Origin: Candidatus Gastranaerophilales bacterium
GTDB taxonomy: Bacteria > Cyanobacteriota > Vampirovibrionia > Gastranaerophilales > Gastranaerophilaceae
NCBI GenBank assembly: GCA_944324475.1
Contig: CALUWK010000001.1
Coordinates: forward strand, 62,001-126,000
Reading direction: 5' to 3'
DNA length: 64,000 bases
Part shown: positions 6,283 through 22,255 of the stretch, piece by piece
Layout of the letters: each line of letters opens with the position of its first letter
Position numbering within the stretch: position 1 is the stretch's first letter
Made by a program: the position numbers and the translations under genes
Notes under the pieces: model-generated
Databases searched by the model: none
Seen by the model: the letters and a program-made list of their open reading frames with translations, nothing else
Told to the model about the DNA's origin: nothing

Positions 6283-8925
6283 ATGGAAGATAAAAAGACA
6301 CTTATTTTAATAGATGGTCACGCATTGGCTTTTAGAATGTTTTTTGCACTCGAACGAACAAATATGCAAACAACGACTCATATTCCGACTTGGGCGGTTT
6401 ATGGTTTTTTTAAAGTAATCTTTGACCTTTTGGCGGATAAAAAACTCTCTCTCAAACCAAATTCTATTGCAGTTGCATTTGATGTTTCAAAAGCAACTTT
6501 TAGACTTGAAAAATATTCAGAATATAAGGCTAACAGATTAACCATGCCGGATGCCTTAAGAACTCAGCTGGAACTTATTAAAGACGGGCTTAACGTTCTT
6601 GATATTCCGATATATACAATGGAAGGATATGAGGGTGATGATGTTATAGGTACTATTGCCTCTCAGGCAAGCAAGAAGGGTCATAGAACATATATTTTAA
6701 CTGGCGATAAGGATTCTTTTCAACTTGTTGATGATATGGGTTTAATTTCTGTTTTAATTCCTCAAAAAGGTGAGATTAATGAATATAATAAACAAAAAGT
6801 TTTTGAAAATTTGAACGTATATCCTAATCAAGTTGTAGACTATAAAGCTTTATGCGGCGATAGTTCGGATAATATTCCAGGGATTAGAGGAATTGGCCCA
6901 AAAAGTGCAGCATCTTTGCTTGAAGAATATTTAACTCTTGATGGAGTTTACGAAAACATTGAAAAAATCAGTAAAAAATCTTTGAAAGAGAAATTAATTG
7001 AAGGTAAGGAAAATGCCTATTTATCACAGTTTCTTGCAACAATAAAAAAGGATTTGGATATAAAATTTGATTTTGAAAGTGCGTGTTTAACTGCTCCAAA
7101 TAAGGAAAAAGTTAAAGATTTTTTTCAAAAATTGCAGTTTTATTCATTTGTTAAAAATATTGATAAATTACTTTCTCCCTTCAATATAGAAACTTCTTGC
7201 GAAAATGAAAATATTGTTAAATTTGATGAAATAAATCCTTCAATTTTGCAGATGAGTCTTTTTGATGAATCTGAAGAAACAAAAGAATTGAAAGAAGTTA
7301 TAAAATTAAAAGATGATGAAGTGAAAATCTTTTTAAATTCTATAAAAACAGGGGATAAAATAGCATTATTAGCAGATTATGCCGACAATAATTTTTGTTA
7401 TGTTTCAGACGGCAAAAGCACTTGTAAGGTTTCGTCTATAGAAATAAAGGATATATTTTTAAATGAGGAAATAAAAAAATGTGTTTATGATATAAAAACT
7501 ATTTTGTCTTCTGAAATAGGAGATATTAAAGGAGTTATAAGCGATGTACAACTATCAAGTTATATGCTTGATTCATCAAGAAAACATGATTTGATTACTC
7601 AGATAAATGAATGTTTAGAGGTTGTTCCCGATGAAAAGGATTTATATTCTTTATGTTCCTATATTTTAGATTTAAACGAATTTTATAATAAGAAATTAAC
7701 CGATGCAGAACTTAAATTATTGAATGAGGTTGAACTTCCTTTGGCTTTTGTTTTAAGTGATATGGAAAAAACAGGAGTTAAGATTGATGTAAATTGCCTT
7801 CAGGAAATTGGAAAAGAAATTGATTTTAAAGTTGCTGAATATGAAAAGAAAATATATAAAGAGGCTGATTGCACTTTTAATATAAATTCTCCTAAACAGG
7901 TAGCAGAAGTTTTATTTGACAAATTACAAATTAAACCCAAAAAAAGAGGTAAATCTGGAACATATAGTACAAATGCTAAAATATTGGATGAGCTTGCTTT
8001 TGAATATAATATTGCTTCTGATATTTTGCAACATCGTCAGTTGATGAAATTAAAAACAACTTATGTTGACGTTTTGCCTAAACTTGTTAAGGGCGACGGA
8101 AAAATTCATACACATTTCAATCAAATAGTAACTACAACTGGAAGATTGTCTTCTTCTGATCCTAATTTGCAGAATATTCCAATTAGAACTGAATTTTCAA
8201 ATAGAATTAGGGGTGCTTTTATTCCTGCTGATGCAGAATCATATATAATGAGTGCTGATTATTCACAAGTAGAATTGCGTCTTTTAGCTCATTATTCGGG
8301 AGATGAAAGTTTAATTAAGGCGTTTGTGGAGGATGTAGATATTCATAAAGTTACGGCCTCAAAGATTTTTGGTGTCCCTGTTGAAAATGTTACAAAAGAA
8401 ATGAGGAGAAAAGCTAAAACTGTTAATTTTGGTATAATATATGGTCAGACAAAATATGGATTATCTAAAACATTGGGAATTGAGCCTTTTGAAGCGCAAG
8501 AATTAATTAATAAGTATTTTATGACTTATCCTAAGATTTCGGGTTATATAAATTCAACTCTTGAAAAAGCAAATGAAAAAGGGTATGTTGAAACTTTATA
8601 TGGTAGAAGAAGGTATCTTGGTGCAGAATTAAATTCGAGAAATGCAAATATAAGGGAGTTTGCTGCTCGTGCTGCAATAAACGCTCCATTGCAGGGAACA
8701 AGTGCTGATATTATTAAAATGGCGATGGTTGATTTATTTGAGAAATTGAAAAGTTACAAGTCAAAAATGATATTACAAATTCATGATGAATTGGTTTTAG
8801 AAGTTCCGAAAGATGAAATTGAAATAGTAGAACAAATTGTAATTAAAGCAATGGAACTTAATCAACCTTTAAAAGTGCCTCTTAAGGTTGAAGTTAGTTT
8901 GGGAAAAACTTGGATGGAAAAATAA
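6283..8925 (+). CDS. polA: DNA polymerase I
   Basis: The 880-aa product has the three PolA regions. The 5'-3' exonuclease/FEN domain (1-300) includes EGYEGDDVIGT, LTGDKDSFQL and the GIRGIGPKSA helix-hairpin-helix. A 3'-5' exonuclease-like region (about 320-480) follows, then the polymerase domain (490-880). Polymerase motif A (SADYSQVELRLLAHYS), motif B (RRKAKTVNFGIIYGQ) and motif C (QIHDELVLEVP) are intact. The proofreading domain lacks the canonical DxE, with LLADYADN at that place, so it is probably inactive, as in Taq and Bacillus enzymes. It heads an operon with priA and a helicase/nuclease pair. Role: Okazaki fragment maturation and repair synthesis. Confidence 0.97.
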   Translation: MEDKKTLILIDGHALAFRMFFALERTNMQTTTHIPTWAVYGFFKVIFDLLADKKLSLKPNSIAVAFDVSKATFRLEKYSEYKANRLTMPDALRTQLELIKDGLNVLDIPIYTMEGYEGDDVIGTIASQASKKGHRTYILTGDKDSFQLVDDMGLISVLIPQKGEINEYNKQKVFENLNVYPNQVVDYKALCGDSSDNIPGIRGIGPKSAASLLEEYLTLDGVYENIEKISKKSLKEKLIEGKENAYLSQFLATIKKDLDIKFDFESACLTAPNKEKVKDFFQKLQFYSFVKNIDKLLSPFNIETSCENENIVKFDEINPSILQMSLFDESEETKELKEVIKLKDDEVKIFLNSIKTGDKIALLADYADNNFCYVSDGKSTCKVSSIEIKDIFLNEEIKKCVYDIKTILSSEIGDIKGVISDVQLSSYMLDSSRKHDLITQINECLEVVPDEKDLYSLCSYILDLNEFYNKKLTDAELKLLNEVELPLAFVLSDMEKTGVKIDVNCLQEIGKEIDFKVAEYEKKIYKEADCTFNINSPKQVAEVLFDKLQIKPKKRGKSGTYSTNAKILDELAFEYNIASDILQHRQLMKLKTTYVDVLPKLVKGDGKIHTHFNQIVTTTGRLSSSDPNLQNIPIRTEFSNRIRGAFIPADAESYIMSADYSQVELRLLAHYSGDESLIKAFVEDVDIHKVTASKIFGVPVENVTKEMRRKAKTVNFGIIYGQTKYGLSKTLGIEPFEAQELINKYFMTYPKISGYINSTLEKANEKGYVETLYGRRRYLGAELNSRNANIREFAARAAINAPLQGTSADIIKMAMVDLFEKLKSYKSKMILQIHDELVLEVPKDEIEIVEQIVIKAMELNQPLKVPLKVEVSLGKTWMEK

Positions 8926-8926
8926 A

Positions 8927-9289
8927 ATGAGAAAAATATTTTTAATTTTAAGTTTATTATTTTCAATTTGTTTCGCTCAGAGTATGTTTGAAGAATGTTA
9001 TAGGATATATCCAAAAGATGCGGACACTCTTTTTATGAGTGCAATAGGGGCGATTAATTCTGATTCTAGGTTTTCAATTTCTGAAATTCAGTCTGCAAAC
9101 GGATATATTTTGTTTTTATATGGCTCTAAGTATTATCTTTTAACATTAACAAAAAGGTATCAAAATCAAACTGAAATAAAAATTCTTCCTCAAAATAGTG
9201 ATTTTTCTCAGGGAAGTACGGTCGCAAAGGCTGTTTTTGCACTTATTGACACAAAATTGAAGAATTCTCCAATGGGACTTGTTAAGTAA
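8927..9289 (+). CDS. Small exported protein of unknown function, 120 aa
   Basis: The ATG at 8927 begins one base after the polA stop codon. It opens with a Sec signal peptide (MRKIFLILSLLFSICFAQS) with likely cleavage after FAQ or CFA. The mature part of about 100 residues has a YPKDADTLFMSAIGAI segment and beta-rich stretches (YILFLYGSKYYLLTLTK). The reading frame continues upstream to 8888 inside polA, but the signal peptide makes 8927 the sensible start. It is sandwiched between polA and priA with 1-2 nt spacing, so it is co-transcribed with repair genes although its product is exported. I do not recognise the family. Confidence 0.7.
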   Translation: MRKIFLILSLLFSICFAQSMFEECYRIYPKDADTLFMSAIGAINSDSRFSISEIQSANGYILFLYGSKYYLLTLTKRYQNQTEIKILPQNSDFSQGSTVAKAVFALIDTKLKNSPMGLVK

Positions 9290-9291
9290 TT

Positions 9292-11334
9292 ATGATTGGC
9301 TTAGATGAAAAAAAATATGCACAGGTTTTGGTTGATATTAATAAATTGGGAACAAAAACATTTAGCTACTTAATTCCAGATGAATTTAAAAAAGAAATTA
9401 AAGTAGGTCAATCCGTTCTTGTTCCCTTCGGCAGGAGAAAAGATGGTTTAAAGGCTTATGTAGTCGGGTTTTCTAATTATCTTGAAGAAGGAATAAAAGC
9501 GAAGTATATCACAGAAATTTTAGAAACAGAGTCTTTATTTTCTCTTGAATATTTGAAACTTTTGGATTGGGTTGCAAATTATTATTATTGCGATATTCAG
9601 ACAGTTTTAAATATGGCTTTGCCACAGAAATTTTTTGAAAAAAATGTTAAAAAATATAGAAAACCGAAAAAAGAAAATGAGATTTATAAAATTATAATAA
9701 AGGAAAAAATAGAACATAATTTGTCTATAGAACAAGAAAAAATTTATAAAGAAATAAAAAAAGTTAATGCAAAAACCTCTTTATTATATGGAATTACTGG
9801 TTCAGGTAAGACTGAAATATATTTTAAATTAATTGAAGACACCATTAAAAAAAATAAAAATGTTATTTTTTTGGCTCCTGAAATAGCACTTGTTTCTCAG
9901 CTTACTATGCGTACTATTGAGCGCTTTGGAGCTGAATGTGTAGCGCTTTGGCATAGTTCTGTTACTGAAGCAGAAAAATATGAAACTTGGAAAAAATTAA
10001 GAAATAACGAGATAAAAATTCTTTTTGGAGCAAGGAGTGCTGTTTTTGCTCCAATTCGTGATTTAGGACTTGTTATAATAGATGAAGAACATGAATCTAG
10101 CTATAAGCAGACGATGCCTTCTCCAAGATATAACGCTAAAGAAGTAGCTAAAAAGTTATGTGAATTATATGATGCTAAGCTTGTTTTAGGGTCTGCAACT
10201 CCTTCTATCGAAAGTTATTATGAAGCAGTTAATACAAATTCTCTTTTTGAGCTTAAAACAAGATATAATAATGCAAAATTACCGAAAGTAAGTGTTATTG
10301 ACATGAAAACCGAGAGGGCGGAAAAAAATTACACTCCTTTTTCAAGAACGCTTATAAAAAGTACTAAAGAAGCTATTGAAAAAGGGCATCAAGTAATTTT
10401 TTTGATTAATCGTAGAGGTTTTTCATCCTATACACAATGTATGGAGTGCGGTGAAGTTTTGATGTGTGAAAAATGTGCAATTCCATTGATTTATCATAGT
10501 CAGACAAATTCTTATAAGTGTCATTATTGTAATTTTGAAAAAAAAGGTGAAGTAAAATGCCCTAAATGCAATTCTGATGTTTTAGAAAATTTTGGTTTAG
10601 GTTCTCAAAAAGTTGAAGTTACAGCAAAGGAAATATTTTCTGATTACAGGATAGAAAGGCTTGATTCTGATAGTCTTTCAAAGAAAAATGAGCATATAGA
10701 AATTTTAAGAAGATTTCAAAATAAAGAAATTGATATTTTAGTTGGAACTCAAATGATTGCAAAAGGTTTGGATAATAAAAATGTTACTTTGGTTGGAGTT
10801 ATTAATGCGGATTTAAGTTTTAATTTGCCTGATTATAGAAGTTCTGAACGTGGTTTTTCAATTTTAACTCAAGTTGCAGGACGCTCAGGTAGAGGGGATG
10901 AAGAAGGAAAAGTTATTTTTCAGACCTATAATTCATCAAATATGTTTTTAAAAGATGCACAAAAACAGGATTATGAAAGTTTTTATGAAAATGAAATTAA
11001 ATTAAGGGAACTTCTTGACTATCCTCCCTTTTCTAATATGATTAGAATAGTTTTGTCATCTAAAAATGAATTTAGAGCTGAAAAATCGGCAGCGGAAATT
11101 GAGTTACATTTGTCTGATTATTTAAAGAAACTTTCTTTGGATGAAGCAATATTGGTGTTGGGGCCTGTTGAATGTGTTTTAAAAAAAATAAGAGAAGAAT
11201 ACAGATATAATATAATAATTAAAAATAAGTTGTCCGAAAAAGGGCATGGGGTTATTTTAAGATTTTTAAGAACAATTCATCTTCCTGATGACATTAAAAT
11301 GGTTGTAGATATTAATCCTTCGGATATATTGTAA
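9292..11334 (+). CDS. priA: Primosomal protein N' (replication restart helicase PriA)
   Basis: The 680-aa length is typical. The N-terminal 3'-DNA-binding domain (YAQVLVDINKLGTKTFSY ... VGQSVLVPFG) is followed by Walker A GITGSGKTEIY (about 167-177), a DEEH helicase motif II, and the PriA-specific zinc region of paired cysteines (CMECGEVLMCEKC ... CHYCNF ... CPKCNS). Helicase motifs V/VI follow (VGTQMIAKGLD, QVAGRSGRGD). PriA reloads the replicative helicase at stalled or recombined forks. The gene sits 2 nt after the small exported-protein gene and 2 nt before the helicase gene, so its position fits coupling of recombination repair to restart. Confidence 0.96.
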   Translation: MIGLDEKKYAQVLVDINKLGTKTFSYLIPDEFKKEIKVGQSVLVPFGRRKDGLKAYVVGFSNYLEEGIKAKYITEILETESLFSLEYLKLLDWVANYYYCDIQTVLNMALPQKFFEKNVKKYRKPKKENEIYKIIIKEKIEHNLSIEQEKIYKEIKKVNAKTSLLYGITGSGKTEIYFKLIEDTIKKNKNVIFLAPEIALVSQLTMRTIERFGAECVALWHSSVTEAEKYETWKKLRNNEIKILFGARSAVFAPIRDLGLVIIDEEHESSYKQTMPSPRYNAKEVAKKLCELYDAKLVLGSATPSIESYYEAVNTNSLFELKTRYNNAKLPKVSVIDMKTERAEKNYTPFSRTLIKSTKEAIEKGHQVIFLINRRGFSSYTQCMECGEVLMCEKCAIPLIYHSQTNSYKCHYCNFEKKGEVKCPKCNSDVLENFGLGSQKVEVTAKEIFSDYRIERLDSDSLSKKNEHIEILRRFQNKEIDILVGTQMIAKGLDNKNVTLVGVINADLSFNLPDYRSSERGFSILTQVAGRSGRGDEEGKVIFQTYNSSNMFLKDAQKQDYESFYENEIKLRELLDYPPFSNMIRIVLSSKNEFRAEKSAAEIELHLSDYLKKLSLDEAILVLGPVECVLKKIREEYRYNIIIKNKLSEKGHGVILRFLRTIHLPDDIKMVVDINPSDIL

Positions 11335-11336
11335 AA

Positions 11337-14300
11337 ATGTTGATAAATGCTAATTCTAATACAAATAGAACTGAAATATTACAGAAAAAATATTTAGAAC
11401 TTTTAAATTCAGGAGTTGAAGCTGAGAAGATACTTGTTATTGTTCAGAATTCTAAAAAGAAAAAAGAATTTGTAGATAAAATTAAAAAAGAGTCAAAAAA
11501 TGGTTTTATAGGTTCTCTTAAAATATATAGTTTTTGGGGTTTTATAAGAGAATATATTTTTGAAAATTGGGTAATTGTTGAAAATAGTTTAAAAGATAAA
11601 AATACAAAAATTATACCTAATTTATCCGGCCTTGAAGTTTCCCAGTATATTTTTAAAAAGAGTATAGAAGAAGTTGATTTTACAGGTTATAATTCAAGAA
11701 TTAGTCTTTTACACCAACTTTTTAGGAGAAATTCATTAATTAATTTGAATAATCTTTCAAGAGAGGAAGTTGAAAAAAGAGATAAAATTTTAAAACAAAC
11801 ATATTCTAATGAAGCAAATCAAGTAATTAATAAATATAAAGCTAAAACTATTGACTTAAGAGCGTTCGATTATATAAGACAAATTAATATTTTTGAATTT
11901 CTATATAAAAAAATTGAAAATAAATTTGAATATGTTTTTGTGGATGATGCGGATGAAATTACTCCTTGTGTTTTAGCTTATTTTGAATATATTAAAAAAA
12001 ATGTAAAAGAATTTTTTATTGGTTATGATGAATTTGGTTCTTCCAGATTGGGTTATTTAGGAGCGATTAATGTTAATTTTGAAAAATTTTTGAATGTAAA
12101 AGCATTAAAAATTTTTAACGATGATATTAAATCCATGAATTCACTTAAAATTTTTAATTTAATTAAAGAAGATAAAAAAATTGATATTGAAAACATTAAA
12201 TCAAAATCTTTTTTAAAAAGAAATGAAATGTTAGATTGTGTTATTAAAGATATAAAAATTTTGCTAAATAGTGGTGTAAAATTTTCAGATATAGCAATAA
12301 TAACTCCATTAACTGATGAATTTTTAAAAATGGAGCTTGAAAAAACACAATATAAATTTAATTTTATTTCAAAAAGCGAGAAATTAAATCAAAATAGACT
12401 TATAGGTTATCTTTTAGAGTTATTAAAGATTATAATTGATACAAATAACAGGTTTATTTCTCCTTATGTTTTAAAAGGAATTTTAATTGATATATTAAAT
12501 ATTGAAAAAAAAGAAGCGCTTTGTTTTATTCAGGAGTATAAGACGGGATATGAATTACAAGGTTTAAATTTGTTTGACTTAATGAAAAATAATAACAGTG
12601 AAAAATTAAGAAAATTTGTTGAAATTTATGAAAAAGTGAGATTTGAAAAATTATCAATAATACTTTTTGAAATTGTATCTTGTTTTATTCCTTTTAAAAA
12701 AGAATTATCCAAGGATATAATTAAAATTAATCAGCTTTTAAAACAAATTGTGGATTTTGAAGATGTTTTTAAAGATGAATTTAATAGGTTAGATTTAATC
12801 ATTCAGCTTGAAAATACGATTATTTCTGAAAATCCTTTGAGTGATGATGAAATAGATGAAGATTCAATAATTGTGTCATCTGCTCAAAAAATTATTGATT
12901 ATTCTTACAAAACGAAATATCAATTTTGGTTAGATGTGTCGTCTGAAAATTGGTTAAGACAAGATATAGGACCTTTGTATAATTCTTGGGTTATGCAAAA
13001 AAAATGGAATAAAGAAATTTTTGAACTTGAAGATAATATAGAACTAACAAAAGATAGAACTGCCAGAATGCTTTATAAGCTTTATTTATTGGGGGATAAT
13101 ATAACTTTATATTCAAGTGCTTATGATTATATAGGGGCAGAAAATTTTTCGGGTATTGATAGGTATTTTGAATGTAAAAATGAATTTGAAAAAGATGAAA
13201 ATATTAAAATTGAACCTATTGTGCCGAGAGATGATCAAAAAGAGGTATTGAAATATAATGGCGGTTTAATGTCTGTAAGCGCTACTGCTGGTTCAGGAAA
13301 AACAACAATAATGTTGCTTTTGGTAGATAAGATTTTATCAGGTGAAATATTAAAAGATATTGAACCCAAGAATATTTTTGTTTTGACTTTTATGGAATCA
13401 GCTGCAAGGAATTTTAAAGAAAGAATAAAAAATAAATATCCAAATTTAAAGGAATTGCCAAACATTTCAACAATTCATGGACTTGCGCTTAGAATTTTAA
13501 AGGAAAATAATAATTTTTCAAAAGTTGGTCTTGATTATGATTTTGAAATTTTAGATGAAATAAAAAGAGCAAATATTTTAAACGAAGTAGTATATAAATT
13601 TTTGGGTTCAACTGAAAAAGTTGATTTGTATGATGGTGCAATAAGTGCTTATAAAAATGAGCTGGCTTTGTATGGAAATTTTGATTGTAAAAATAAACTT
13701 TTTTTAAGTATTTATGAGGCTTATGATGTACGTTTGAAATCGGAAAATTTGATTGATTACGACGATTTGTTGCTTTTAAGTTTGAAATTATTAAAAGAAA
13801 ACAAAGATATTTTGGATTATTATAATGATTTAGCTAAAATTATTATTGAAGATGAGGCACAGGATTCTAGCAATATTCAGCAAAATTTGATATTGCTTTT
13901 GGGGAAAAAATATAAAAATATAATTCGTTGCGGGGATATAAATCAAGCTATAACTTCAACATTTTCAAATTCTGATGTTGAAGGATTTAAAGAATTTATA
14001 AAAAAATCTAAAAATGTTGTAATGGATAGATGTCAAAGATGCGCAACAGGGGTTTTAGATTGTGCAAATAGTACCGTAAATTATGCAAAAAAAGAAAAAA
14101 TAGAAGCATTTGGTGATTTAATAATGAAACCGGTTGAAGGAAAAAATATAGTTGATTTTAAGGCTGTTAAAAGTTTAATTTTTGAAAAAGAAAAAGAAGA
14201 AAATGATTTTATTTTAAGAGAGATACAATCTATATTAAAAAATGCTAAAAAACCTGTTTCTATAGCAATTCTTACAAGAAGTAATTTTGCTATTAATAAA

Positions 14301-15134
14301 TGGGCAAAAATTTTTGATGAGAATAATATAAAAATTTACAAAAATTCTGAAAGTCTTATAAATAATTTATGTTATAAAGTTATACTTTTGATTATGGAAT
14401 ATATAGCTAATCCTTATGATTTAAAAGTTTTAAGGGAAATTGCAAAAGAACTTTATGATGCAGGTTTTTATGAATTTGATACTTTAAAGTATGTTAATTC
14501 ATTAAATGAGCCTATTTTTCTAAAGAAAGATTTTGATGAGCAGTTTTGGTGGGATATTAATTATTTTTTGTTTAAAAATCATTATTCAATTTATGATTTG
14601 GCTTGTGAAATTGGAGAATTTTATTTTTCTAAAACTTCTGAAAAAGATAATATTCATATGGTTGCAACAATAGCACAAAAAATAAAAAATTCTCAAAAAA
14701 CATTTGAAGATGCTGTCATAAAATTAAGAGAGATTCAATTTAAAAATAATTTTTCAAATATTAAATTTTTTAAAAATGAAAAAAAGGATTTTAAAAAAAA
14801 TACTGTATGTGTTATGACTTTACATAAATCAAAAGGGGATGAATTTGATTATGTATTTATTCCTGAATTAACAAAGGATAATTTGTGTTTAAGTATTGAT
14901 GATTGTAAATTGAAAGAAAAGTCGATTTTTATTCAAAAAGTCAAAAAAAATTCAAAAAATGACTATGAATTAAAAAAAGAAATAGTGGAAGAAAATTTTA
15001 GATTAATTTATGTTGGAATTACAAGGGCGATTAAAAAATTATACTTGTCTGTTTCAAACAATTATAAATACTTTTCAAAAGATAAAAAATTTGAAAATTC
15101 GGAAATTTTTGAGGGGGTATTGTGCAAAAAATAG
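11337..15134 (+). CDS. Giant UvrD/AddAB-like protein: degenerate N-terminal helicase half plus intact C-terminal helicase half
   Basis: The protein has 1265 aa. The C-terminal half is a complete superfamily 1A helicase: motif I ATAGSGKTT (649-657), motif II EDEAQD (838-843), motif III RCGDINQAIT, motif V MTLHKSKGDEFDYVFIPEL and motif VI YVGITRA (about 1224-1230). The N-terminal half also looks helicase-like, but motif I has decayed to NANSNTNRT (4-12) and motif II to FVDDADE (201-207), as in the inactive AddB or RecC subunits. The RecB-type nuclease is encoded by the next, overlapping gene. Likely role: double-strand break end processing, by analogy with AddAB/RecBCD. The fusion order is inferred, not tested by structure prediction. 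Confidence 0.75.
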   Translation: MLINANSNTNRTEILQKKYLELLNSGVEAEKILVIVQNSKKKKEFVDKIKKESKNGFIGSLKIYSFWGFIREYIFENWVIVENSLKDKNTKIIPNLSGLEVSQYIFKKSIEEVDFTGYNSRISLLHQLFRRNSLINLNNLSREEVEKRDKILKQTYSNEANQVINKYKAKTIDLRAFDYIRQINIFEFLYKKIENKFEYVFVDDADEITPCVLAYFEYIKKNVKEFFIGYDEFGSSRLGYLGAINVNFEKFLNVKALKIFNDDIKSMNSLKIFNLIKEDKKIDIENIKSKSFLKRNEMLDCVIKDIKILLNSGVKFSDIAIITPLTDEFLKMELEKTQYKFNFISKSEKLNQNRLIGYLLELLKIIIDTNNRFISPYVLKGILIDILNIEKKEALCFIQEYKTGYELQGLNLFDLMKNNNSEKLRKFVEIYEKVRFEKLSIILFEIVSCFIPFKKELSKDIIKINQLLKQIVDFEDVFKDEFNRLDLIIQLENTIISENPLSDDEIDEDSIIVSSAQKIIDYSYKTKYQFWLDVSSENWLRQDIGPLYNSWVMQKKWNKEIFELEDNIELTKDRTARMLYKLYLLGDNITLYSSAYDYIGAENFSGIDRYFECKNEFEKDENIKIEPIVPRDDQKEVLKYNGGLMSVSATAGSGKTTIMLLLVDKILSGEILKDIEPKNIFVLTFMESAARNFKERIKNKYPNLKELPNISTIHGLALRILKENNNFSKVGLDYDFEILDEIKRANILNEVVYKFLGSTEKVDLYDGAISAYKNELALYGNFDCKNKLFLSIYEAYDVRLKSENLIDYDDLLLLSLKLLKENKDILDYYNDLAKIIIEDEAQDSSNIQQNLILLLGKKYKNIIRCGDINQAITSTFSNSDVEGFKEFIKKSKNVVMDRCQRCATGVLDCANSTVNYAKKEKIEAFGDLIMKPVEGKNIVDFKAVKSLIFEKEKEENDFILREIQSILKNAKKPVSIAILTRSNFAINKWAKIFDENNIKIYKNSESLINNLCYKVILLIMEYIANPYDLKVLREIAKELYDAGFYEFDTLKYVNSLNEPIFLKKDFDEQFWWDINYFLFKNHYSIYDLACEIGEFYFSKTSEKDNIHMVATIAQKIKNSQKTFEDAVIKLREIQFKNNFSNIKFFKNEKKDFKKNTVCVMTLHKSKGDEFDYVFIPELTKDNLCLSIDDCKLKEKSIFIQKVKKNSKNDYELKKEIVEENFRLIYVGITRAIKKLYLSVSNNYKYFSKDKKFENSEIFEGVLCKK

Positions 15135-15751
15135 ATACATTTAGTGCAAATTCGCTTAAAATTTTAGATAAAAGTTTTGAAGAGTTTGAAAATAAGTATA
15201 TATATAATCTTTCAGTATATAAAAAAGATGAAAGAACTGTGCTCGGACAAAAGTTTCATACCTTGATTTGTTTTTATATAAGAGGTTTTGATGTTAAAAG
15301 ATTGGTTATGGATTTGAGTCCTGATGAGCACATCTTTTGGCAGAAATTAGAAAAAAAATTAAAAATAATAAAATCAAATTTTATAAAAACAGAATATTCT
15401 TTTCTGATTAAAGATGAATTAAATAATTTTTCATATTATCTGACAGGTCGTTTTGATGGAATTTATAAAGATGAAAAAGGCTATATAATTTATGATTGGA
15501 AAACTTTAAATCTTCCTAAGAATCCTTATGATGATATTCAAAGTATTGTATATTTGTATTCTTTAAGCAAAATTTATAAAACAAATAGAATAAAGATGCG
15601 ATATCTTTCCATAGAAAAATTGGATACTTTGGATGTTGATTTTGTATCTAGTGAAAAATATAAGAAAAAAATAGATAAAATTTTATTAAAGTTACCTTGG
15701 TTTAATATTTCTTCAAGTAATGACTTAGAGTTTCAAGAGTTGAATTTTTAA
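15122..15751 (+). CDS. PD-(D/E)XK (RecB-family) nuclease, stand-alone
   Basis: The 209-aa product carries the RecB/Cas4 nuclease signature: H46 (GQKFHTL), E91, GRFDGI with D112, YDWKT with D125 and K127, and the QxxxY motif at Q140-Y144. These residues bind metal and catalyse phosphodiester cleavage. The GTG start at 15122 has a strong GAGGGGG site 4 nt upstream and overlaps the helicase gene by 13 nt, so the two are translationally coupled and probably form one complex. In AddA/RecB this domain is fused to the helicase C-terminus; here it is separate. The four-cysteine Fe-S set of Cas4/AddB is absent. The 3' end overlaps convergent mnmD by 50 nt. Confidence 0.85.
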   Translation: MQKIDTFSANSLKILDKSFEEFENKYIYNLSVYKKDERTVLGQKFHTLICFYIRGFDVKRLVMDLSPDEHIFWQKLEKKLKIIKSNFIKTEYSFLIKDELNNFSYYLTGRFDGIYKDEKGYIIYDWKTLNLPKNPYDDIQSIVYLYSLSKIYKTNRIKMRYLSIEKLDTLDVDFVSSEKYKKKIDKILLKLPWFNISSSNDLEFQELNF

Positions 15752-16496
15752 TTTCTAAATTTCTATAATTTGTTATTAATTTATGGTTAGAATTAAGGTT
15801 TTTATCTTTATATGTTATGGCTGATTTTGTTTTTAACATACCTAATTCAAAGTTATTTAAGGGATTTTGAATTAAATTAGAGTTATATGAGGCAATGGTA
15901 CCTATTGTTCTGTTTTTTTTAATGGTTTTTCCTATCGTTATTCCTGTTTTATATAAAGCGTTTAGGACTGGTTTAGAATGATTATATGTGCAATAAAGCC
16001 CGTTTTTATCCAGTTTTTTTATTATTTCATAAATTAAATCTTCGCTCCAAAGTTCTGCTTGTTTGTGGGGAGCAAAACCGTCATGAAAAATTATGTCGTA
16101 TGTTTTATCCAGTTTTTTTATTATTTTTCTTATGTCATTAAAATAAAAGTTTATAAAATCAGGTTTTTTAAGGTTTTCCTTTATAATTTTATTTATATTT
16201 TTTGTAGATTTGTATTCAAATTCAAAAGATTTTTTTGCAAGTTTAAAATCAATTTCCACACAATCTATGGATTTTATAGTGTTAAAATTTTCTATGGCAC
16301 ATTTTGTGTTGTAACCTATGCCATAGCATATATCGAGGATATTTAAAGGTTTTTTATTTAAAGGCAGGCATGGCATTACAAATTTTTCAAAAGCTTCTGT
16401 TTTAGCACCTTCTTTTGAGTGGTATATTTCACCTAAACTTTTATTATAAAGCCCGATTGAGCCATCTTTGGTTATTATTATTTCAATATTTTTCAT
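15702..16496 (-). CDS. mnmD: MnmD-type tRNA (5-methylaminomethyl-2-thiouridine) methyltransferase
   Basis: The 264-aa product matches the methyltransferase domain of MnmC (DUF752). It has an SAM-binding segment LNILDICYGIGYNTK (about 52-66), acidic loop VEID, a YDIIFHDGFAPHKQAELWS catalytic-type motif near residue 135, and YCTYNHSK. It would add the last methyl group of mnm5s2U34 in tRNA. The FAD-dependent oxidoreductase half of bifunctional MnmC is missing, as in the stand-alone MnmD of Bacillus and Aquifex. It starts at an ATG just beyond the ftsZ terminator, so it is transcribed separately from ftsZ. The call rests on motifs only. Confidence 0.8.
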   Translation of the reverse strand: MKNIEIIITKDGSIGLYNKSLGEIYHSKEGAKTEAFEKFVMPCLPLNKKPLNILDICYGIGYNTKCAIENFNTIKSIDCVEIDFKLAKKSFEFEYKSTKNINKIIKENLKKPDFINFYFNDIRKIIKKLDKTYDIIFHDGFAPHKQAELWSEDLIYEIIKKLDKNGLYCTYNHSKPVLNALYKTGITIGKTIKKNRTIGTIASYNSNLIQNPLNNFELGMLKTKSAITYKDKNLNSNHKLITNYRNLEIKNSTLETLSHYLKKY

Positions 16497-18988: not shown

Positions 18989-21900
18989 ATGTTACTTAAA
19001 AAATCAAATAAATTTATATTTGCATTTAGCTTAATTGAACTTATGGTTAGTTTAATTACAATAAGTTGCATTGCTGCAGCTTTTTCTCCAATCATTTCAA
19101 AAAAACTTTCAATGTCTTCAATTATGGTATCTAAACCATCAGGGGGATCTGAAGGGGATAGCTCTGGTTCTTGCCCATCTGGTCAGTATATGCCAAGTGG
19201 GACAAATACTTGCACAAAATGTTCTGATACTTTTTCTGGTTGTTCAATATGCACTGAATCAGAGTGTTTAGTCTGTAATTCTGGTTTTAATTTATTTAAT
19301 GGTCAATGTGAACTTAATAGTTGTCCAGCAAATACTATTAAAATTACCACTAATGGTAAAGATCTTTGTGTAACTCAGTATAATATGGGTGACAGATCTG
19401 AGTTCCCGGTTAACATTTCAAATGTTTCTGTAGTTTCAGTTGGTACAAGTTGCACTGCTGATGCCTGCTGCTGGCAGGGTAAGACCTCTGAATCTTGCGA
19501 TTCAGAAAACGGTGGTTATAGCGGATGTAATAGAACAGTATGTACTTACTATGCAGCAGAAAAAATATGTAACAACTTAAATTATGGTGGTATGGGCTGG
19601 AGACTACCTACTAAAGATGAACTCGCTGGATTTGATCCAACTACAAATTCAAAATATAAAGGTACATCAGGTCTTATGTTGTGTGACGACGATTCTGGTT
19701 ACGGTTCTGCTCAATGTGCTGATTATTATAATTGTGATACTAATTATTATGAATGTTCTTCAAATCACATTTGGTGTGTTCAAACTATTCAACCTAGTAA
19801 TTGGAAAACTAGTACATATGCAATGGGTTCGGGCTCTTGGAGTAGCTGGTCATCTACAGGTACTCGTTACGCCTATTCCGTACGTTGTGTCAGTAATTTG
19901 ACTTGTGCTACTAAATTTAATTCAAATTGTTTAGATTGTAGCGATACTACATGTACTGTCTGCAAAAAAGGGTATGTAGTTAATAAAAATGGTCAATGCA
20001 TAGCTGATCCATGTCCAGAGAATACTGTTTATGTTGAAGCTGATGGTAAAGAACTTTGTGTAACTCAATATAATATGGGGGATAAAACTGAATTTCCAGT
20101 TAATGTCTCTGGTGTCTCTGTAGTTTCAACTGGTACAAATTGCAGCGCAAATGCCTGCTGCTGGCAGGGTAGGACTTCTAATTATTGCAATTCAGATAAT
20201 GGTGATTACAGCGGATGTAATAGAACTTTATGTACTCAATATGCAGCAGAAATTATATGTAACAACTTAAATTATGGTGGTTTAACTTGGAGACTACCTA
20301 CCAAAGATGAACTTGCTGGATTTTATCCAACATATTCAAAAGACCTAGGAACAAGTGGTCTTATGTTGTGTGACTACTATTCTGGTTACGGTTCAGCTCG
20401 GTGCGACGATTACGATGTTTGCGACGGCTCCTACGATGGTAACTGCTACCCGTACTACGTTTGGAGCAGTGCGCTTAATAGTAGCTTTAATGCTTATCTT
20501 TATTGTTTGCATGCAAGGTCATGGGGTTTAAATTCATTTAATAGACGTGAGGCTAATTCTGTTCGTTGTGTGAGTAATATAGCATGCACAAAATTCGGTT
20601 CAAATTGTACAGATTGTAGCGATTCTGCCTGCACTGCTTGCAAGGAGGGGTATGCAGTAAAAAATAGTCAGTGCGTAGCTTGTTCTAGTGCTTTTGGTTC
20701 AGGTTGCACTTCTTGCAGCTCATCTGCCTGTACTGCTTGTTCTGATGGGCATATTTTAAAAGACGGAAAGTGTATAGTAAGTCCATGTCCAACTAATACT
20801 GTTTATGTTGCAGCAGGTAATAAAGAACTTTGTGTAACTCAATATAACATGGGGGATAAAACTGAATTTCCAGTTAACGTTTCTGGTGTCTCTGTAGTTT
20901 CAACAAATTCAAATTGCAACGCAAATGCCTGCTGCTGGCAGGGTACGACTGCATCTCCTTGTAATTCAATTAATGGTGATTACAGTGGATGTAATAGAAC
21001 TTTATGTACTCAATATGCAGCAGAAAAAATATGTAACAATTTAAATTATGGTGGTATGAGCTGGAGACTACCTACTAAAGATGAACTTAAAGGATTTGAT
21101 CCAGGTTCATATTCAATAAACAAGGGAACAAGTGGTCTTATGTTATGTGACTACGGTTCTGGTTATGGTTCTGCTTATTGCCATGGTTGTTATGTTTGTA
21201 ATGGTTCTAGCAGTGGCAGTTGCAGTCCAGATCGCATTTGGTGTAGTACACTTTATAGTAGTTCTAGTGCCTATAATTATTATTTGTATTCAGGGTCTTG
21301 GACTCAGGATCAATATGAAAGACGCCATGCTTTTTCCGTTCGTTGTGTCAGTCCCTTAAGTGAAAAAACTTGCAAAGACACCTTTGGCAATGGTTGCGTT
21401 GAATGTTCATCATCTGCCTGCACTAGATGTGTAGATGGGTATAACTTAAAAGATGGTCAGTGTGTAGCTTGTTCTAGTGCTTTTGGTATAAATTGTACTT
21501 CTTGCAGTTCATCTGCTTGTACTATTTGTAAAGAAGGATATGGAATAAAAGATGGTCAATGTGTTACTTGCTCTGATGCTTTTGGTGCAGGGTGTACTTC
21601 TTGCAGTTCATCTGCTTGCAATATTTGTTCTAGTGGATATACCTTAAAAAATGGCAAATGTGTCGTGGTGCCAACATGTCCAGCGAACACTGTTAAAATC
21701 ACAGTTAGTGGCAAAGACCTTTGTGTAACTCAATATAACATGGGAGATAAAACCGAGTTTCCCGTTAACGTCTCTGGTGTCTCTGTAGTTTCAACAAATT
21801 CATATTGCGGCGCAGATGCCTGCTGCTGGCAGGGCAGGACTGCTAATAATTCTTGCAATTCAAATAATGGTGACTACAGCGGATGCAAAAGAACTGTATG

Positions 21901-22255
21901 CACTCAATACGCTGCTGAAATTATATGTAACAACCTAAATTATGGTGGTATGAGCTGGAGATTACCTACTGAAGATGAACTTGCTGGATTTGATCCAGAT
22001 ACATATTCAAGATATAAAGGTGCTAGCGGCCTTATGTTGTGTGACGAGCTTTCCGGTTACGGTTCTGCTGAATGCTACAAATGCAGTGCTTGCGCTGGCT
22101 CCGACAATGGTAACTGCGAGCCGTACCACGTATGGAGTAGTACACTTTATAGTAGTTCGAGTGCTTACGAATACTTCTTGGGTTATGGGTCATGGAATTC
22201 GAATCACGGCAATAAACGGTACGCCTCTTCCGTACGTTGTGTCAGTGAGTTATAA
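18989..22255 (+). CDS. Type IV pilin-like, cysteine-rich protein with four tandem C-type-lectin-like (DUF1566/FISUMP-type) modules
   Basis: The 1088-aa protein opens with a prepilin signal: a Lys-rich leader, then FA|FSLIELMVSLITISC, with Glu at +5 of the mature form and cleavage after Ala12. Four modules of about 190 aa follow (near 110-304, 342-531, 600-789, 898-1088). Each has ELCVTQYNMGD, ACCWQG, NNLNYGG.WRLPT.DEL, GLMLCD..SGYGSA and a final SVRCVS, the WRLPT...RCV layout of DUF1566/FISUMP domains. Linkers carry short Cys-rich units (CTSCSSSACTACSDG.ILKDGKC type). It is probably a surface pseudopilin or adhesin cross-linked by disulfides. Ligand unknown. No pilus assembly genes are nearby. 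Confidence 0.8.
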   Translation: MLLKKSNKFIFAFSLIELMVSLITISCIAAAFSPIISKKLSMSSIMVSKPSGGSEGDSSGSCPSGQYMPSGTNTCTKCSDTFSGCSICTESECLVCNSGFNLFNGQCELNSCPANTIKITTNGKDLCVTQYNMGDRSEFPVNISNVSVVSVGTSCTADACCWQGKTSESCDSENGGYSGCNRTVCTYYAAEKICNNLNYGGMGWRLPTKDELAGFDPTTNSKYKGTSGLMLCDDDSGYGSAQCADYYNCDTNYYECSSNHIWCVQTIQPSNWKTSTYAMGSGSWSSWSSTGTRYAYSVRCVSNLTCATKFNSNCLDCSDTTCTVCKKGYVVNKNGQCIADPCPENTVYVEADGKELCVTQYNMGDKTEFPVNVSGVSVVSTGTNCSANACCWQGRTSNYCNSDNGDYSGCNRTLCTQYAAEIICNNLNYGGLTWRLPTKDELAGFYPTYSKDLGTSGLMLCDYYSGYGSARCDDYDVCDGSYDGNCYPYYVWSSALNSSFNAYLYCLHARSWGLNSFNRREANSVRCVSNIACTKFGSNCTDCSDSACTACKEGYAVKNSQCVACSSAFGSGCTSCSSSACTACSDGHILKDGKCIVSPCPTNTVYVAAGNKELCVTQYNMGDKTEFPVNVSGVSVVSTNSNCNANACCWQGTTASPCNSINGDYSGCNRTLCTQYAAEKICNNLNYGGMSWRLPTKDELKGFDPGSYSINKGTSGLMLCDYGSGYGSAYCHGCYVCNGSSSGSCSPDRIWCSTLYSSSSAYNYYLYSGSWTQDQYERRHAFSVRCVSPLSEKTCKDTFGNGCVECSSSACTRCVDGYNLKDGQCVACSSAFGINCTSCSSSACTICKEGYGIKDGQCVTCSDAFGAGCTSCSSSACNICSSGYTLKNGKCVVVPTCPANTVKITVSGKDLCVTQYNMGDKTEFPVNVSGVSVVSTNSYCGADACCWQGRTANNSCNSNNGDYSGCKRTVCTQYAAEIICNNLNYGGMSWRLPTEDELAGFDPDTYSRYKGASGLMLCDELSGYGSAECYKCSACAGSDNGNCEPYHVWSSTLYSSSSAYEYFLGYGSWNSNHGNKRYASSVRCVSEL
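19318..22252 (+). repeat. Four intragenic direct repeats encoding the lectin-like modules
   Basis: Approximate units are 19318-19899, 20014-20582, 20788-21357 and 21680-22252. Near-identical DNA blocks recur in every unit, for example GCCTGCTGCTGGCAGGG and the ATGTGTAACAA-type block before NLNYGG. Between these fixed blocks are two strongly divergent patches per unit, after the GLMLCD block and just before RCVS. The third unit resembles the fourth in its VWSSTLYSSSSAY-type stretch, suggesting recent duplication or gene conversion. Confidence 0.85.

Follow-up and report, generated by a model that had tools for sequence, protein, structure and literature searches.

How would a DNA-end-processing enzyme be organised if its inactive and its active helicase core shared one chain and its nuclease were encoded by a gene of its own? 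This question is raised by two overlapping open reading frames (ORFs), ORF1 and ORF2, in a 64,000-nucleotide (nt) stretch of DNA, i.e., the window, from genome G000 (1.72 Mb in 64 contigs, 97.4% complete) of Candidatus Gastranaerophilales (Melainabacteria), a gut relative of the cyanobacteria. The first-pass annotation described the pair as an AddAB enzyme with its domains reshuffled. We find instead that the pair is the fused form of a three-gene set that runs through the phylum, and that its first part is not singled out as AddB over any other core of helicase superfamily 1A (SF1A). Our reading, to which we assign a probability of about 0.7, is that ORF1 and ORF2 make up a DNA-end-processing helicase–nuclease that works like AddAB or RecBCD and consists of three subunits across the Cyanobacteriota, the first two having been fused once in the Melainabacteria.

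The second half of ORF1 is intact, as the annotation had it. Its residues 633–1241 match the Pfam families UvrD-helicase (6.9e-44) and UvrD_C (6.5e-25), and the P-loop ATAGSGKT, the Walker B sequence EDEAQ and the TRA of motif VI are all in place and invariant across the order. A profile search of the PDB places this half closest to PcrA/UvrD (2.4e-70), and the NCBIfam pcrA model gives ORF1 175 bits vs. a cut-off of 911, so that no equivalog is assigned. ORF1 ends about 35 amino acids (aa) past motif VI and contains no Pfam match to PDDEXK. The nuclease is ORF2, which matches PDDEXK_1 (pfam12705) at 3.5e-8 (34.1 bits vs. the Pfam cut-off of 22) and is indeed, as first described, a separate 209-aa protein that begins at a GTG within ORF1, the overlap being 13 nt. 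Its catalytic motifs are intact: all 17 of the diverse nuclease rows compared share G42, H46, E91, D112, D125, K127, Q140 and Y144, and the catalytic residues do not vary across the order. The AlphaFold2 (AF2) model of ORF2, with a predicted local distance difference test score (pLDDT) of 91.8, aligns best with the nuclease domain of AdnA (Z 16.9, root-mean-square deviation (rmsd) 2.6, 187 residues aligned), followed by ACE1 (Z 14.4, rmsd 3.3, 188 aligned), the AddB nuclease (Z 13.3, rmsd 3.1, 195 aligned) and RecB (Z 10.5, rmsd 4.3, 175 aligned). Nucleases of the AddB type carry a four-cysteine iron–sulfur (Fe–S) site. A four-cysteine pattern (C and CxxC...C) is found in the nucleases of most relatives, which from this pattern appear to be of the Fe–S type, and has been lost in the window's genus.

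The first half of ORF1 is far less conspicuous in sequence. Scanned alone, it gives a weak UvrD-helicase match over residues 3–228 (2e-6, above the Pfam cut-off), and residues 1–658 have no NCBIfam match. A PDB profile search with a narrow alignment returned nothing below 0.07, and one with a wider alignment returned UvrD (2.6e-6) and AdnA (0.0015) and neither AddB nor RecC. The AF2 model of this half (pLDDT 84.7 over 622 residues) was matched by Foldseek to UvrD (1.8e-18), AddB (2.8e-16, template modelling (TM) score 0.63) and AdnB (3.5e-16, TM 0.67), and by VIA-align to UvrD (Z 29.0, rmsd 9.2, 533 aligned), AdnB (Z 23.5, rmsd 4.5, 571 aligned) and AddB (Z 22.0, rmsd 5.3, 573 aligned, spanning AddB residues 4–699). 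The RecC chain 1w36_F is among the Foldseek matches (E 6.5e-12); it is not among the best 50 VIA-align rows, which excludes nothing. Because of these matches, the predicted structure is a complete SF1A helicase fold that begins directly at the P-loop position, and the first-pass proposal thus keeps the helicase fold in residues 1–620 on which it depended. On the model, the fold by itself gives AddB no preference over UvrD. For the ionic-latch insertion known from AddB (PMC4824097), no counterpart is claimed in the first half.

This fold has lost the marks of a motor. The Walker B position reads VDDADE, i.e., altered, as had been noted, and across the aligned rows it is DD(L/A)D vs. DEFQ in UvrD; the motif III region is without its Q, and the TRA of motif VI was not found. 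The loss of Walker A (NANSNTNRT), which the annotation had also reported, is true of the window's family, but not of Vampirovibrio or of several related families, which still have a P-loop. The pattern GxxxxGK[ST] occurs in this half in 0 of 28 genomes of the genus (loci L005–L032), 0 of 33 further sampled genomes of the family and 0 of 3 of family f6, and is kept in 2 of 2 of f2, 3 of 3 of f3, 1 of 1 of f4, 2 of 2 of f7, G384, Vampirovibrio and one named Gastranaerophilales locus (L088). Where the dead helicase is a separate gene, the P-loop is kept in G102, G208, G351, G061 and G060 and gone in G069, G098 and G077. This patchy distribution suggests that the P-loop was probably lost more than once. 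Since every row of the family alignment (A5) shows changes in the remaining motifs, we read the whole dead-helicase family as non-motor. The first half nevertheless holds 44 invariant columns among 21 sequences. A further observation concerns residues 527–552, at the place of motif V, where a strongly conserved WLDxSSxxWxKxDxGPLYNxWV-like block is found, in which all 17 rows share D533 and W539.

Conservation of ORF1 is wide. It is present in all 20 relatives' loci that were fetched (1233–1342 aa), and its first half was matched in 53 of 58 relatives at E ≤ 0.001, spanning the order; the fusion is therefore not a product of chance or of a sequencing fault, and the idea that the first half is a random extension was rejected. 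Full-length matches to the ORF1 alignment, among those listed, are mostly from Candidatus Gastranaerophilales, Vampirovibrio sp. (L108) being the most divergent; the other titles are Adamsella, 'uncultured bacterium', 'Bacterium', 'Cyanobacteria bacterium' and one 'Clostridiaceae bacterium' (L112), a label that is probably wrong. The nuclease lies directly 3′ of ORF1 in 13 of the 20 loci, with overlaps of 4 to 50 nt. In the other seven, the flank is without a nuclease or too short; PDDEXK_1 matches at other places in the same genomes point to a nuclease that is unlinked from ORF1 in several of them.

In the other lineages of the phylum that were examined, the dead helicase is a protein of its own, of 660–780 aa; neither Pfam nor NCBIfam matches any of the three that were tested (L175, L177 and L169) at E ≤ 0.01. 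Five genomes (G069, G095, G098, G077 and G104) have the genes for dead helicase, live helicase and nuclease side by side in this order on one strand, live helicase and nuclease are adjacent in G090, and in G384 (of the same class as the window) and Vampirovibrio L108 the fused dead–live gene is followed by the nuclease. Elsewhere the three genes are far apart on one contig (G226, G351) or on different contigs (G102, G061). In a 37-row tree built from the live half, the 23 fused rows form a single clade (100/98), with 10 of the 11 separate-gene rows as its sister, while PcrA, UvrD and the further helicase L004 of G000 fall outside. As the fused rows are one clade, the simplest reading is that the dead–live fusion occurred once, in the Melainabacteria.

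The distribution of the set was then compared with that of RecC in 386 genomes of the phylum, searched for the dead helicase (alignment A5, E ≤ 1e-10), the nuclease (A6, E ≤ 1e-8) and RecC (PF04257, E ≤ 1e-10), with the set arithmetic done by hand from the listed positives. The dead helicase was found in 311 and the nuclease in 309 (11 of these matches being weak, E > 1e-20); 305 genomes have both, 71 have neither, and four have the nuclease without the dead helicase (G169, G328 and G333, all weak, and G255). RecC was found in 62 genomes, 57 of which belong to one family, f37, and all 57 are without dead helicase and nuclease. Overall, 306 genomes have the dead helicase without RecC, 57 RecC without the dead helicase, five both and 18 neither. 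Because all 57 genomes belong to a single family, this pattern probably reflects one replacement rather than 57 independent events. Most cyanobacterial recBCD genes are carried by marine Prochlorococcus and Synechococcus, according to the part of PMC5101192 drawn upon, and f37 is probably that marine picocyanobacterial family. Separately, four f14 genomes (G060, G066, G074 and G087) hold RecC, dead helicase and nuclease together and would be useful for asking whether two machines share labour.

Within G000 itself, the searches for UvrD-family proteins, PDDEXK_1 and RecC disclosed no AddA/AddB pair and no RecBCD. RecC (PF04257) is absent from G000 and from all 58 relatives at the cut-off, with a positive Escherichia coli control, and no RecD-like gene was recognised at the locus, the search for RecD being confined to it. 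PDDEXK_1 occurs in G000 at only two places, ORF2 and L004 (positions 856–3897 of contig C19), a 1013-aa UvrD helicase fused to a cysteine-rich PDDEXK_1 nuclease, which is probably of the UvrD–Cas4 fusion type described in the part of PMC5704561 drawn upon. The genome also has a PcrA-like (L002, 822 aa) and a UvrD-like protein (L003, 670 aa). No second complete AddAB or RecBCD that would compete with the first-pass proposal came to light in these searches, L004 being a single-chain helicase–nuclease. In two relatives (G033 and G034), the sole PDDEXK_1 match adjoins ORF1.

While similar in its parts to several known enzymes, the set differs from each of them. First, AddAB also pairs a dead with a live SF1A core and has a RecB-family nuclease; the dead core, starting at the P-loop position, aligns with AddB residues 4–699, and the Fe–S-type four-cysteine nuclease recurs in most relatives of the window, its own genus excepted. 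However, each AddAB subunit ends in a RecB-family nuclease domain, whereas the ORF1 cores carry none, are fused in one chain and are accompanied by a nuclease with its own gene, the only nuclease gene found with the set. Second, RecBCD likewise combines one dead SF1 core (RecC), one live 3′–5′ motor (RecB) and one active nuclease (subunit roles in part after PMC1185551), whereas ORF1 is unmatched by the RecC family PF04257, has no space for an inactivated nuclease domain behind its dead core, is accompanied by no recognised RecD-type motor at the locus and is not fused to its nuclease. Third, the AdnA nuclease domain is the nearest structural match of ORF2, but both AdnAB subunits are motor plus nuclease, whereas here one core is dead and neither has a nuclease. 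UvrD, PcrA and Rep are single SF1A cores of about 700 aa; ORF1 is double, and its live half falls outside the PcrA/UvrD branch. UvrD–Cas4 fusions (PMC5704561, in part) share the UvrD helicase and the pfam12705 nuclease, but are single chains with no dead core, and the L004-type gene is distinct from ORF1 and ORF2. ACE1 (PDB 9iab, 9iac) is a cyanobacterial stand-alone nuclease of similar fold, but the titles of these two entries name no dead/live helicase pair; a cyanobacterial nuclease of the set (L203) has no PDB sequence match by phmmer. By the tests made on the sequences, the set belongs to none of AddAB, AdnAB and RecBCD; what sets its architecture apart from all three is a nuclease that neither helicase carries. 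No description of the three-part set was found among open-licence PMC papers.

We think, by analogy, that the machine may nonetheless work like these enzymes. The C-terminal half of ORF1 would act as the 3′–5′ motor, unwinding DNA from a double-strand end. A dead SF1 scaffold and single-strand scanner would be provided by the N-terminal half, in the role of AddB or RecC; in those two, Chi is bound by inactivated helicase domains at what used to be the single-strand site (PMC4824097, in part). ORF2 would dock on ORF1, cut the unwound strands and leave a 3′ tail for RecA. The assembly of a complex, the resection of ends and a possible Chi-like site are inferred. Across the Cyanobacteriota, the same work would be done by a dead helicase, a live helicase and a usually Fe–S-type nuclease as three subunits.

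The resemblance of the ORF2 model to ACE1, a member of an Argonaute-associated Cas4 family, raises an alternative, i.e., that the helicase and a Cas4-like nuclease form a defence module which destroys plasmids, phage and incoming DNA rather than repairing breaks. UvrD–Cas4 fusions have been proposed as defence parts (PMC5704561, in part), and in Synechococcus elongatus a uvrD, a cas4 and a PD-(D/E)XK gene limit RSF1010 maintenance and transformation (PMC10653904, in part). In transposon screens of S. elongatus PCC 7942, losing ago, cas4, uvrD, recJcy, rpoD2 or Synpcc7942_0992 favours RSF1010 and natural transformation (PMC10653904; PMC7125226; both in part); this uvrD is a paralogue distinct from pcrA, and Synpcc7942_0992 is PD-(D/E)XK-like, according to the same sections of PMC10653904. 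The S. elongatus genome G091, two small contigs of which are 100% identical, over the stretches compared, to plasmids of PCC 11801, holds the dead helicase (1.8e-86), the nuclease (6.7e-34) and a live helicase (L212) within the separate-gene clade. The uvrD/0992 phenotype would also be expected on our own reading, of a RecBCD-like enzyme that degrades incoming DNA, and since RecBCD also degrades foreign DNA, the S. elongatus phenotypes do not separate defence from repair. The presence of dead helicase and nuclease in 305 of 386 genomes, the housekeeping polA–priA neighbourhood in the window's genus and the complementarity of the set to RecC speak against a defence module, which we consider unlikely.

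Alternatively, ORF1 might be an accessory helicase of the UvrD/Rep type for stalled forks or transcription conflicts, with a separate nuclease and a dead half that regulates or docks. The closeness of the live half to PcrA/UvrD in the PDB profile search, the dispersal of the genes in oxygenic cyanobacteria and the presence of L004, which could do end resection, would all suit this role, but it leaves unexplained why 305 genomes have dead helicase and nuclease together, why the RecC-bearing f37 has neither of them and why their genes are neighbours in several families, and G000 already encodes PcrA-like and further UvrD-like proteins as separate genes; we regard it as quite unlikely. That ORF1 is the relic of a decaying AddAB, with breaks repaired via L004 or RecFOR/RecJ, is very improbable, because the decayed first-half P-loop in the window's family and f6, the cysteines lost from the nuclease in the genus and three relatives without ORF1 are set against live-half motifs and nuclease catalytic residues that are invariant across the order and a first half with 44 invariant columns.

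Several observations weigh against an end-processing helicase–nuclease shared across the phylum. Fold searches place UvrD/PcrA over AddB for the dead half, and L004, in the same genome, could process ends instead. The three genes are dispersed in oxygenic cyanobacteria, S. elongatus included, and one separate-gene live helicase (L195 of G090), on a long branch, groups with the outgroup. Of the 311 dead-helicase genomes, six (G239, G288, G422, G063, G084 and G105) have no nuclease match at the threshold and eight more have a weak one (E > 1e-20); for G255, the nuclease is listed and the dead helicase is not; and G169, G328 and G333, of the same family and 98–99% complete, have no ORF1 or dead helicase and only a weak nuclease match, apparently as losses of the system. 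The exclusion of RecC comes mostly from the one family f37, and is broken by the five genomes with RecC and dead helicase (the four of f14 and G107, which is 9% contaminated) and by the 18 with neither. Finally, the S. elongatus uvrD and Synpcc7942_0992 are linked to the set by description and not by a sequence match, and the phenotype is the same for cas4, which is a separate gene (PMC10653904, in part), so that Synpcc7942_0992 need not be the nuclease of the set.

Table 1. Positions in the window of the two genes, their landmarks and their neighbours
Feature	Position	Strand	Basis or remark
ORF1, degenerate SF1A core fused to intact UvrD-type SF1A core, 1265 aa	11337..15134	+	ATG start
Dead helicase core (first half of ORF1, aa 1-622)	11337..13202	+	AF2 model, fold searches, homologues
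Decayed P-loop position NANSNTNRT (aa 4-12)	11346..11372	+	Motif alignment
Altered Walker B of dead half, DDADE (aa 203-207)	11943..11957	+	Aligned to DEFQD of UvrD
Live UvrD-type helicase (second half of ORF1, aa 623-1265)	13203..15131	+	Pfam, conservation, tree
Intact P-loop ATAGSGKT of live half (aa 649-656)	13281..13304	+	A, G, G, K, T invariant in 21/21
Intact Walker B DEAQ of live half (aa 839-842)	13851..13862	+	Motif alignment
Motif VI RLIYVGITRA of live half (aa 1222-1231)	15000..15029	+	Motif alignment
Shine-Dalgarno-like GAGGGGG	15111..15117	+	4 nt upstream of ORF2 GTG
ORF2, PD-(D/E)XK (PDDEXK_1) nuclease, 209 aa, own gene	15122..15751	+	GTG start; Pfam, AF2, fold searches
ORF2 catalytic residues H46, E91, D112, D125, K127	15257..15502	+	Invariant in 17/17 diverse rows
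polA	6283..8925		
133-aa ORF	8888..9289		Between polA and priA
priA	9292..11334		
264-aa gene	15702..16496	-	Methyltransferase-like by eye
1088-aa protein	18989..22255		Prepilin-like N-terminus by eye

The genes 5′ of ORF1 are tightly packed, i.e., polA, a 133-aa ORF and priA (Table 1). The first-pass annotation took this operon to tie resection to repair synthesis and replication restart. The genes are real, but the neighbourhood was found in only three of the 20 fetched loci, all of the same genus, and was unseen in the available flanks of the other 17; the polA–priA linkage was accordingly rejected as family-wide functional evidence. The 133-aa ORF, which has no confident family assignment, is kept in all three genus loci and has a signal-peptide-like start by eye. 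The 264-aa gene is convergent, and its 3′ end overlaps that of ORF2 by 50 nt. Further downstream, the 1088-aa protein continues after its N-terminus with about four similar cysteine-rich repeats, again by eye.

Model cyanobacteria have been reported to be without recB of the E. coli type, recC or recD, in the part of PMC5101192 drawn upon, and for bacteria without the known presynaptic systems an earlier genome survey proposed unknown ones (PMC1193525, in part). As genomes without RecC mostly have the set and genomes with RecC mostly do not, it offers concrete candidate genes for end processing in most cyanobacteria. This is of consequence for targeting genes in these organisms and for transforming them; the dead helicase subunit, in turn, shows the loss of a P-loop as a natural series. 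A wider proposal, to which we give even odds, is that most Cyanobacteriota and Melainabacteria would resect breaks with a further helicase–nuclease class beside RecBCD, AddAB and AdnAB, i.e., a dead SF1 scanner, a live SF1 motor and a solo nuclease as three subunits, encoded by two genes in the Melainabacteria, with RecBCD taking their place in a single family that is probably the marine picocyanobacteria; its scanner may read a lineage-specific Chi, and the scanner's ATP-binding loop is being lost stepwise. If so, this stepwise loss would re-enact in nature the way in which a RecC-like subunit could come about.

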